A stretch of DNA of 40,583 nucleotides from a virus, in the IMG/VR virus record IMGVR_UViG_3300030108_001316, positions 1 to 40,583 of that record. One strand, written 5' to 3'. The first letter of the stretch is position 1. Each line of letters starts with the position of its first letter. Below the pieces are notes generated by a model, which searched no databases, was not told the DNA's origin, and saw only the letters and a list, made by a program, of their open reading frames with translations. Positions 1-40,583 of this stretch are shown piece by piece. The translations under genes were made by a program, and so were the position numbers.

Positions 1-100
1 AGTACACTCATGTAATCTAGAAATACTACGTCTGGCATCAAAGAATCTACCTCTACTTCTAGCTCTGGTATACCAAACGACGACGAGCACACAGCATAAA
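1..100. repeat. Terminal direct repeat, left copy (circular joint)
   Basis: Positions 1-100 match 40484-40583 base for base except at 99 (a) versus 40582 (g). The helicase reading frame continues through the joint, so this looks like the overlap of a circular or circularly permuted assembly rather than a duplicated gene piece. The differing base falls in the third position of a phenylalanine codon (residue 211) and is silent. A physical 100-bp terminal repeat is possible but less likely, because the ends lie inside a gene. Confidence 0.9.
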
Positions 101-731
101 AGTCCGGAAACTCATGTGCCGTAGCGATACGTTCTTTCAGCATACCCTCAGAAAAATCTTGTACTGATACAAATAAAACTTTGAGTCCATCTCGTATTGC
201 TTGACGCACTAGTGACAACAGTATGGTAGTCTTACCTCTACCACTAAACGCACACAATACGGCTAACTCTTCTCTACTTACTCCGTAATAAAATAAACTA
301 AGTAAATCATTAGTAGTATCCGACACAAATTCACTTATAGGTTTAGCTACTGCTTGTGTTGTTATAGCTCTAACGTCTGATGCTACATTTATTCTTTCAA
401 GTTTCTTCTCTGGACGCACTCGTGATTTAAGTACGTCACCTACTTCTTTTAATTGTGTAAGTGTTTGTAAGTAATGGATAGACCTGTACCCTACAGCAGT
501 AGTCACTCGTTCTGACATACCTTTGAGATAATTAAACTCTGTTGAGTTAAGTTTACCCTTAACAAAATCAAGTAAGTCCGCCTTAGTTATATCAGTCTTA
601 CTCATCATCAACTCATCCAACACTATATCAAAGGGTGCGTCTAATTTAATTTTCTTTACTATTGGTTCTAACACTTGTCGTTTATCTTTCTTCAATAAGA
701 AAGTCATCAAGTTTAGATATGCGTTATCCAT
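1..731 (-). CDS. DnaB/T7-gp4-like replicative helicase, N-terminal part (gene crosses the joint)
   Basis: This part encodes residues 1-243 of a 348-residue RecA-fold helicase. The rest lies at 40168-40483 after circularisation. Residues 163-169 (SGRGKTT) form Walker A and residues 235-240 (VVFLDY) form Walker B with D239. Residues 1-130 are a helical region without the zinc finger or TOPRIM of T7 gp4; the primase is a separate gene at 38890-39669. The start at 731 overlaps the stop of the upstream gene as TAATG, and a GGAG-type ribosome site lies just upstream. As a hexameric 5'-3' helicase it would unwind phage DNA at the fork with the polymerase encoded in the same leftward operon. The family call is firm; the exact subfamily is not. 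Confidence 0.9.
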   Translation of the reverse strand, partial: MDNAYLNLMTFLLKKDKRQVLEPIVKKIKLDAPFDIVLDELMMSKTDITKADLLDFVKGKLNSTEFNYLKGMSERVTTAVGYRSIHYLQTLTQLKEVGDVLKSRVRPEKKLERINVASDVRAITTQAVAKPISEFVSDTTNDLLSLFYYGVSREELAVLCAFSGRGKTTILLSLVRQAIRDGLKVLFVSVQDFSEGMLKERIATAHEFPDFYAVCSSSFGIPELEVEVDSLMPDVVFLDYMSV

Positions 732-3555: not shown

Positions 3556-3975
3556 TTATAACTCAGCATCAAAAGCACAGCGACCGCATTGTATAATACA
3601 ATCACGAATCTCTTTACCTAAGTCGTGTCTAGCATACAATACTAGAGCCTTGTCTACTTCTTCTGCTGGTATATTGGTTTGTTCTACTATCATCTCGTCA
3701 TTGTAACCATTGTTCTCTTTGAAAAACTTGTCTAACTCAGCTTTGTAAGAGCCTAGTTGGTCAGCTATGTCATTGAGTTTAGTTATAACACCAGACAGAT
3801 GTTCTTCTCCAAAGTAATACTCTAAGCCATCGTAATACTCGGCTTCTTCATACAATTTTTTGCCATCACTCTGCAAAAAGTATACACCTCGGACTCCGAA
3901 ATGATTTGCATCATTACTATTCTGTACTGCAAACCAGAACTTGCCATTGATATCACCATTATAGTATCTACCCAT
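3556..3975 (-). CDS. Conserved phage protein of the 'GRYYNGDINGKFWFAVQ' type
   Basis: This 139-residue protein starts at the ATG at 3975 behind AGGAGGTGAG. The opening residues and later 'EYYFGEEHLSGV' and 'FFKENNGYNDEM' form a pattern I recall in hypothetical proteins of several marine phages and some bacteria. The middle is helical and charged. C-terminal CIIQCGRCAF contains three cysteines (C-x3-C-x2-C), possibly a metal site, with too few ligands for certainty. Function unknown. It is the first gene after the structured intergenic element at 4086-4147. Confidence 0.7.
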   Translation of the reverse strand: MGRYYNGDINGKFWFAVQNSNDANHFGVRGVYFLQSDGKKLYEEAEYYDGLEYYFGEEHLSGVITKLNDIADQLGSYKAELDKFFKENNGYNDEMIVEQTNIPAEEVDKALVLYARHDLGKEIRDCIIQCGRCAFDAEL

Positions 3976-4085
3976 AGGAACTCACCTCCTGTTTAGTATA
4001 GTGGTGATTTTTGTGAGGAATAAAACCACCAAAACCTAGAATTCATTTTGTTGTGGGCTTGAACTCCGAACTTACCCATTTAGTA

Positions 4086-4147
4086 TGTGTAGCTCATCGT
4101 GAACAGGTCACTTTAATCTCACGCCTTAATCCTGTCTAAGCTACACA
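4086..4147 (-). ncRNA. Candidate structured RNA with possible pseudoknot
   Basis: This lies in the 193-base gap between two leftward genes. A perfect 9-bp outer stem pairs 4086-4094 with 4139-4147. Inside, 4098-4102 can pair with 4119-4123, and 4103-4107 with 4131-4135; these two 5-bp helices cross, so they form either a pseudoknot or two exclusive states. A third local hairpin (4099-4102 with 4108-4111) competes with both. It is given on the minus strand because flanking transcription is leftward. I could not fit a tRNA or any riboswitch I know. It could be a cis-regulator of the gene at 3975 or a free small RNA. Confidence 0.45.
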
Positions 4148-4153
4148 GGTATT

Positions 4154-4168
4154 GCGGGACATTCCCGC
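4154..4168. repeat. Palindrome copy 2 (GCGGG-N5-CCCGC)
   Basis: Arms of 6 bp around CAT. It abuts the stop codon of the gene at 4169, the same placement as copy 1, and is followed leftward by the structured element. Confidence 0.85.
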
Positions 4169-4468: not shown

Positions 4469-4483
4469 GCGGGAGAATCCCGC
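4469..4483. repeat. Palindrome copy 3 (GCGGG-N5-CCCGC)
   Basis: Arms extend to 8 bp (TTGCGGGA and TCCCGCAA) around GAA. It lies in the presumed leader of the gene at 4444. Confidence 0.85.
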
Positions 4484-4484
4484 A

Positions 4485-4621
4485 ACTAGTTACTAGTTAA
4501 TACTTACTAATATAATTAAATACTAATAACTAGTATCTACTAGTAACTAATATATACATATAAGTATACACTAATATACTAGTATGTCAAGTGACCAGTT
4601 GCTACTCATGTAAACACTAGT
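4485..4621. repeat. ACTAGT hexamer cluster in AT-rich spacer; candidate origin or protein-binding array
   Basis: The non-coding stretch 4445-4755 holds six ACTAGT sites starting at 4485, 4492, 4529, 4539, 4578 and 4616, in a background almost free of G and C. Two close pairs (starts 7 and 10 bases apart) look iteron-like. The site at 4578 is part of ATACTAGTAT (4576-4585), which also occurs at the rightward promoter (5751-5760). An AT-rich tract with repeated binding sites between two operon segments is a plausible replication origin or regulator array. No gene fits here. Confidence 0.45.
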
Positions 4622-4675: not shown

Positions 4676-4690
4676 GCGGGTTTTTCCCGC
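4676..4690. repeat. Palindrome copy 4 (GCGGG-N5-CCCGC)
   Basis: The centre is TTTTT, with arms extended to 8 bp (TTTGCGGG and CCCGCAAA). It lies just downstream of the leftward terminator. The central base pair of other copies (A/T) is not kept. Confidence 0.8.
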
Positions 4691-4700
4691 AAAATTAGAC

Positions 4701-5401: not shown

Positions 5402-5416
5402 GCGGGATATTCCCGC
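5402..5416. repeat. Palindrome copy 5 (GCGGG-N5-CCCGC)
   Basis: Centre TAT with 7-bp arms (TGCGGGA and TCCCGCA). It is the only copy upstream of the leftward promoter, about 25 bases before its -35, where an operator could sit. Confidence 0.85.
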
Positions 5417-40159: not shown

Positions 40160-40167
40160 ATGTTCTC

Positions 40168-40583
40168 CTAAAAAATAGATGTGTTTAGATTTGCAAAGTC
40201 AATATCAACTTTGAATACATCTACTGGTGCTGCTCTTCTTGATTTAATTGTAGTAACATTTCGCACCGTATCGTACATGTCACCACCTATACCAAGCACT
40301 AAGTCTGTGTGAGCTAGGAGTCCCGCCTTAGCCTCTAACAATTCTTTTTCACTTGGTAAGTTTACATCAGCATTTAACTGATGAGCTGTAATAATAGCTA
40401 TCTTCTTATTCTGAGCTACTCGTTTAAGATTCTCAGATATGTATTCCAACTGAAATCTTTTCTCTTTGCTCTGTGGTGCGTCTAGTACACTCATGTAATC
40501 TAGAAATACTACGTCTGGCATCAAAGAATCTACCTCTACTTCTAGCTCTGGTATACCAAACGACGACGAGCACACAGCATAGA
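40168..40583 (-). CDS. DnaB/T7-gp4-like helicase, C-terminal part (gene crosses the joint)
   Basis: This part encodes about residues 211-348; the N-terminal part is at 1-731. Walker B (VVFLDYMSVLD) appears again in the overlap. The C-terminal motif 'IAIITAHQLNADVN' is the H4-type sensor loop, and 'TIKSRRAAP' carries the arginines expected at the subunit interface. The frame is intact with no stop from 40583 to the stop at 40168, and joining the ends gives one uninterrupted gene of 1,047 bases. Confidence 0.9.
   Translation of the reverse strand, partial: YAVCSSSFGIPELEVEVDSLMPDVVFLDYMSVLDAPQSKEKRFQLEYISENLKRVAQNKKIAIITAHQLNADVNLPSEKELLEAKAGLLAHTDLVLGIGGDMYDTVRNVTTIKSRRAAPVDVFKVDIDFANLNTSIF
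40484..40583. repeat. Terminal direct repeat, right copy
   Basis: Identical to positions 1-100 except one silent difference (40582 g versus 99 a). Confidence 0.9.

Follow-up and report, generated by a model that had tools for sequence, protein, structure and literature searches.

Two adjacent, probably conserved structured RNA modules in an intergenic gap of an uncultured marine phage

An intergenic gap of an uncultured marine phage very probably carries two conserved structured RNA elements. Their folds are conserved with compensatory changes, they are oriented on the transcribed strand, they recur in other phages, and they form an insertion in the phage analyzed here. We also read from the sequences that they are single copy, move between contexts, and lie close to a promoter-like site in several phages. 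The stretch of DNA analyzed (hereafter the window, 40,583 nucleotides) is an IMG/VR-class record that encodes a DNA polymerase, a primase, and a large terminase, the last being no more than a distant relative of the terminases of cultured phages. A sequence-only reading had placed one candidate structured RNA at 4086-4147. Its parts are correct, but its coordinates take in just one of two adjacent structured modules, which we call A and B. The features are as follows.

4086-4147, minus strand: module A, a predicted closed pseudoknot RNA of 62 nt that recurs in contigs L184 (8614-8675, minus) and L185 (13085-13146, plus)
4138-4147, minus: 5' arm of the module A closing stem (nine Watson-Crick pairs and one G.U)
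4086-4095, minus: 3' arm of the closing stem, partner of 4138-4147
4131-4135, minus: 5' arm of module A helix S1, ACAGG, pairing with 4103-4107; invariant in the three phages
4103-4107, minus: 3' arm of S1, CCTGT, pairing with ACAGG
4119-4123, minus: 5' arm of module A helix S2, CGTGA, pairing with 4098-4102 and crossing S1; invariant in the three phages
4098-4102, minus: 3' arm of S2, TCACG, pairing with CGTGA
4003-4078, minus: module B, 76 nt, in which hairpin P3 follows an H-type pseudoknot formed by P1 and P2; directly downstream of module A
4074-4078, minus: 5' arm of P1, TGGGT, pairing with 4054-4058 (GCCCA)
4054-4058, minus: 3' arm of P1, GCCCA, pairing with TGGGT
4060-4066, minus: 5' arm of P2, GAGTTCA, pairing with 4039-4045 (TGAATTC) and crossing P1
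4039-4045, minus: 3' arm of P2, TGAATTC, pairing with GAGTTCA
4022-4030, minus: 5' arm of P3, GGTGGTTTT, with both-side changes and pairing in the alignment
4012-4021, minus: P3 loop, ATTCCTCACA (consensus CCCCUCACCUG), from the alignment of copies
4003-4011, minus: 3' arm of P3, AAAATCACC, from the alignment of copies
4003-4148, minus: insertion of A and B relative to close relatives (edges +/-2 nt); L004, L005, L006, and L060 have a gap of ~50 nt instead
4154-4168, minus: short hairpin GCGGGAATGTCCCGC that follows the upstream gene, whether or not A and B are there
3985-3990, minus: Shine-Dalgarno AGGAGG, 12 nt past P3, belonging to the 139-aa gene that starts at ATG 3975; kept in relatives without A and B
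4563-4590, minus: promoter-like TTGACA-16-TATACT upstream of the 91-aa gene preceding A and B; 11 of 12 consensus bases, a consensus match only

The two ends of the window (4-646 and 40167-40563) are adjacent in its relative L184 (4910-5872), where positions 40563 and 4 match side by side. The window record is therefore circularly permuted, and its leftward small genes and replication genes form one run. Searches of PHROGs and Pfam with flanking proteins found no function. Downstream of the best promoter-like site (TTGACA-16-TATACT) of this leftward operon, the first intercistronic gap is the one that contains modules A and B; all promoter calls are consensus matches, and some are no commoner than in shuffles. 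No intrinsic terminator (GC-rich stem plus T run) was found at either module in the window. Short GCGGG-loop-CCCGC hairpins are repeated in the gaps around the operon start (4154-4168, ~4469-4484, 4676-4693, and 5402-5416), and their stem letters change compensatingly in relatives (TCGGGATTCTCCCGA in L060). The AT-rich region 4485-4590, which overlaps the best promoter-like site, is rich in ACTAGT/TAGTTACTA repeats, includes an inverted repeat of 9-11 bp (4487-4549), and is a possible regulatory or origin region.

On the minus strand, which is the strand of the flanking genes, module A reads from 4147 to 4086 as TGTGTAGCT TAG ACAGG ATTAAGG CGTGA GATTAAAGTGA CCTGT TCACG ATG AGCTACACA. The 9-bp stem described earlier pairs TGTGTAGCT (4147-4139) with AGCTACACA (4094-4086), and a T.G pair can extend it to 10 bp. 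We likewise recovered both crossing 5-bp helices (ACAGG/CCTGT and CGTGA/TCACG) and the competing hairpin (GTGA/TCAC). The module had been called non-coding and unlike a tRNA; no gene call overlaps it, and ARAGORN found no tRNA or tmRNA cloverleaf there. When the 44-nt interior was dinucleotide-shuffled, 0.42% of the shuffles contained two crossing perfect 5-bp helices; for the 193-nt gap, 2% of shuffles gave a 9-bp stem closing a loop of 30-60 nt. The nested fold was better than chance on the minus strand (z = -2.3) and not on the plus strand (z = -1.0). A search for the architecture as such (a clamp of >=7 bp plus a pseudoknot) gave 51 distinct matches in 1.4 Mb of AT-rich DNA, module A included. 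Because this architecture also arises by chance in such DNA, conservation carries the case.

Homologues of module A were sought by scanning viral contigs with the 18-base pattern GGATTAAGGNNTGAGATTAA; apart from a near-identical contig of the window itself, the scan returned L184 (83.7 kb) and L185 (27.8 kb). All 42 of 42 interior bases are identical in the window, L184, and L185, and the closing stems of the three copies are UGUGUAGCUU/GAGCUACACA, UGUGUGGCUA/UAGUCACACA, and UAUGUAGCUU/AAGCUACACA. Pair 6 changes from A-U to G-C, pair 10 is U.G, A-U, or U-A, and pair 7 changes from G-C to G.U; the one break is an A.C at pair 2 in L185. Outside the stem ends, similarity falls to 10-12 of 40 bases upstream and 14-17 of 40 downstream, no better than chance. 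In the three sequences compared, such an abrupt end to the similarity is characteristic of a unit defined by its structure. The identical interior, compensated closing stem, and unrelated flanks in two other phage contigs bear out the earlier proposal of a structured RNA and show that the element, on the minus strand, is conserved. The covariation check suggested with that proposal favors the closing stem, where two pairs changed on both sides and one became G.U (three sequences, a small sample), and gives no information on S1 and S2. As these never vary among the three copies, covariation cannot test the predicted crossing helices, which are unproved.

Module A is single copy in each record, and only three copies are known. 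In L185 a promoter-like TTGACA-17-TATCTT stops 4 nt short of the module, and an ATG with GGGAGG lies 20 nt past it; in L184 an ATG with AGGAG lies 19 nt past the module. L184 has leftward-operon genes in common with the window, and module A lies upstream of those shared small genes.

Module B was found through a blast search of the gap, in which window positions 4013-4082, outside the interval described earlier, matched the cultured phage HTVC105P, and then through pattern scans. These scans collected 35 distinct copies from marine phage contigs and HTVC105P. In the copies the H-type pseudoknot leads into UAGGUUUUUG, after which comes a hairpin whose loop is CCCCUCACCUG; this P3 loop is almost invariant. 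L1 is mostly AAGUUCG or AGUUCG, and L3 is A-rich. A model of module B matched 34 of 42 records, once each, with a second weak match (E 0.03) in one record.

Covariation supports all three helices of module B. In a sequence-only alignment, 92% of the P2 and P3 cells were paired and 41 were changed on both sides, compared with 12.3 in shuffles (0 of 500 reached 41) and 1-9 in slid controls. Both-side changes affect three of seven pairs in P2 (90.6% of cells paired) and five of nine in P3 (93.8%), and unguided RNAalifold recovers both helices. P1 has been re-paired in at least eight sequence forms, including AGGGU/GCCCU, UGGU/GCCA, ACAGGU/GCCUGU, AUUGGU/GCCAAU, ACGAUU/AAUCGU, and GCAAGGU/ACCUUGU. 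With compensatory changes in each helix, module B stands as a new family. P3 of the window, GGUGGUUUU/AAAAUCACC, keeps the stem and differs on both sides at three pairs from the usual UGUGCAUUU/AAAUGCACA.

Other constraints on module B were considered and rejected. A small peptide (ATGAACTCTAGG..., MNSRFLCxSPHLK) was discarded because divergent subtypes lack its ATG, and because the P3 substitutions of the window preserve the stem at the cost of the peptide. An anti-Shine-Dalgarno role for the P3 loop was inconsistent across the copies, and a second pseudoknot, between AGGU (located between P2 and P3) and ACCU in the P3 loop, was not conserved.

The Rfam 15 covariance models gave nothing for either module at gathering thresholds, and at E<=5 only chance-level matches (for module A, a meaningless pntA). 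Among the cultured phages searched, module B occurred only in HTVC105P and module A in none. Both modules were absent from the 395 bacterial genomes searched in the class of L149 (a Sphingomonadales MAG), which is a weak negative. In a second bacterial class, just one genome of 198 had module B; this is a MAG, and its short contig contains the viral stretch also present in phage contig L113. L146 (PBPX01000001.1), from a GTDB genome labelled Actinomycetota (RS345), has the same module B and flanks as L113; it is probably a mis-binned phage contig and would otherwise hint at an actinobacterial host. The literature searched contained no paper on modules A or B. The one paper naming HTVC105P (PMC9437464) has a title on CtrA in phages, and a SAR11 infection transcriptome paper (PMC12753301) gave no matches for intergenic, non-coding, or small RNA. 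On the best reading, A and B would be undescribed families of an already known general kind, phage structured RNA.

Comparison with close relatives suggests how the modules arrived. In L004, L005, L006, and L060, which have the same two flanking genes, a GCGGGAATATCCCGC-type hairpin runs straight to ATACTAAAAAGGAGG, so that ~146 bp in the window correspond to 2 bp at this site. The ribosome-binding site and the downstream gene (ATG 3975) are the same with or without the modules. The best reading is that A and B entered the lineage of the window phage as one cassette of ~146 bp.

Other phages show related variation. HTVC105P, HTVC021P, and HTVC121P carry differing closed-stem sequences, some ending in a T run (L002 2476-2500, L132 1580-1740, and L133 1580-1750). 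In HTVC021P and HTVC121P, other closed-stem sequences occupy the place that module B has in HTVC105P, at the same intergenic site between early genes. Given these differing sequences at one site, the gaps appear to exchange non-coding cassettes. We also observed clamp modules of the form CTTGAGCCCTGATC...GATCTGGGGTCAAG, with up to four per contig (L113 6118-6599, L131 5323-5468, L136 1277/2711/3231, L137 3469/3895, L125 131, L126 1607, L135 208, L138 1415, L063 1469, L066 2595, L070 2517, and L082 2782). They share with module A a closing stem, here around a variable inside, and often lie directly 5' of module B, which is the place of A in the window; their interiors differ between most copies, and they show no sequence similarity to A. 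The clamp modules of L131 and L135 have one common interior with a compensatory CGCUAGCG/GGCUAGCC change.

Module B stands at the start, in the middle, and at the end of gene runs, and no copy among those examined is antisense to both neighbors. The distance from module B to the next start codon is commonly 15-60 nt, often with a good Shine-Dalgarno sequence in place, and 86-319 nt in several loci. The proteins encoded downstream fall into many, mostly unrelated groups, and at least 15 of the downstream genes are unrelated. For the two modules taken together, a promoter-proximal position, as expected of a put-like cis antiterminator, fits the window, L185 (module A), L113, and L145 and does not fit L129, where convergent genes follow module B.

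We tentatively propose, with slightly less than even confidence, that modules A and B act in cis at the level of the operon. Located close to the beginning of an early operon, they would bind a host component such as RNA polymerase, the initiating ribosome, or an RNase, act in this way on their own transcript, and set the expression of the operon and not of one particular gene. We suggest the operon and not the gene as the target because the downstream gene differs from phage to phage. Against this reading stand the convergent genes after module B in L129 and the strong terminators after it in L145 and L135, as a role of B on the downstream gene is not possible or not obvious in those loci. 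Antitermination as a general rule for module B is likewise weakened by L129.

Alternatively, module B, and perhaps A, could be a trans-acting small RNA or decoy, cut from operon transcripts or made in some phages from its own promoter and terminator. This is a possible, somewhat doubtful reading, and for module B it is almost as good as action in cis, since it explains the mostly unrelated neighbors, the single copy per phage, and the copies with their own terminators. In L145, module B follows a divergent gene and is itself followed by a terminator 8 nt later, and in L135 a 13-bp stem and a T run come directly after it. The presence of B in all parts of gene runs and its nearly constant P3 loop would also fit action in trans. 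Most copies lack such a terminator, however (2 of 32 have one within 260 nt under a strict rule), and many adjoin a ribosome-binding site. The earlier suggestion that module A is a small RNA is possible.

A riboswitch or protein-sensing leader that controls translation of the directly downstream gene is unlikely. Module B does resemble small translational riboswitches in placing an H-type pseudoknot, its third loop rich in A, right before a Shine-Dalgarno sequence, and related downstream genes recur behind different module B subtypes (L151/L183, L113/L141, and L156/L166). However, the range of unrelated genes behind module B forms no coherent set, and the conserved parts neither contain nor pair with the Shine-Dalgarno sequence consistently; it is because the neighbors differ that we consider a gene-specific switch less likely. 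The same holds for the earlier idea of a dedicated switch for the gene at 3975. In L184 and L185 module A precedes other genes, module B (4078 to 4003) lies between A and that gene, close relatives keep the gene and its ribosome-binding site with neither module, and the neighbors of B are mostly unrelated, which makes such a switch unlikely.

It is very improbable that the hairpins act as DNA, in a non-autonomous mobile element or a recombination site. The clean insertion of A and B and the movement of both modules between unrelated contexts would suit such an element, but the lack, among the copies examined, of any that is antisense to both neighbors, the single copy per record, and the lack of any visible target-site duplication or transposase speak against it, and pseudoknot covariation is a prediction of RNA. 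Chance pairing in an unconstrained gap, to which the clamp-plus-pseudoknot matches in AT-rich DNA lend some color, is the least credible reading, as it is refuted for module B by the covariation of its 35 copies and countered for module A by 42 identical bases and a compensated stem in three phages, whose diverged clamps argue against a very recent common acquisition by L184 and L185.

Pelagiphage-related phages are very abundant in the ocean, and to our knowledge descriptions of structured RNAs from marine phages are few. Module B adds a well-defined, covariation-supported case, and its cultured representative, Pelagibacter phage HTVC105P, makes a direct test of transcription and function possible. 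If module B does act independently of its neighbor gene, it would give phages a novel means of directing a streamlined host. More speculatively, the early-operon gaps of marine phages may contain interchangeable small RNA cassettes with pseudoknots (modules A and B together with the clamp modules), with at least one of them a new RNA-only device that acts on host RNA polymerase or the ribosome independently of the following gene.

Known systems offer partial parallels. Module B resembles riboswitches of the preQ1-I and SAM-II/SAM-V types in its short P1, conserved L1, and A-rich L3 and in its frequent position just before a Shine-Dalgarno sequence; by contrast, B matches no Rfam riboswitch model, has mostly unrelated downstream genes, and was found in phages only. 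A small phage-borne pseudoknot acting as an inhibitor, as in the ToxI-like RNAs of type III toxin-antitoxin systems, is conceivable for A and B, although ToxI is a tandem repeat whereas A and B are single copy per record and have no Rfam match. Self-cleaving ribozymes such as twister, pistol, and hatchet may be compared with module A in that a closing stem that varies encloses a pseudoknotted interior that is strongly conserved, but A matches none of them in Rfam at E<=5. HK022-type put RNA is a cis-acting antiterminator of a lambdoid phage. It is described as two stem-loops whereas A and B are pseudoknots, and module B also occurs before convergent genes; by analogy, what A and B may have in common with put RNA is a short structured RNA, promoter-proximal in phage early operons and independent of the gene that follows.
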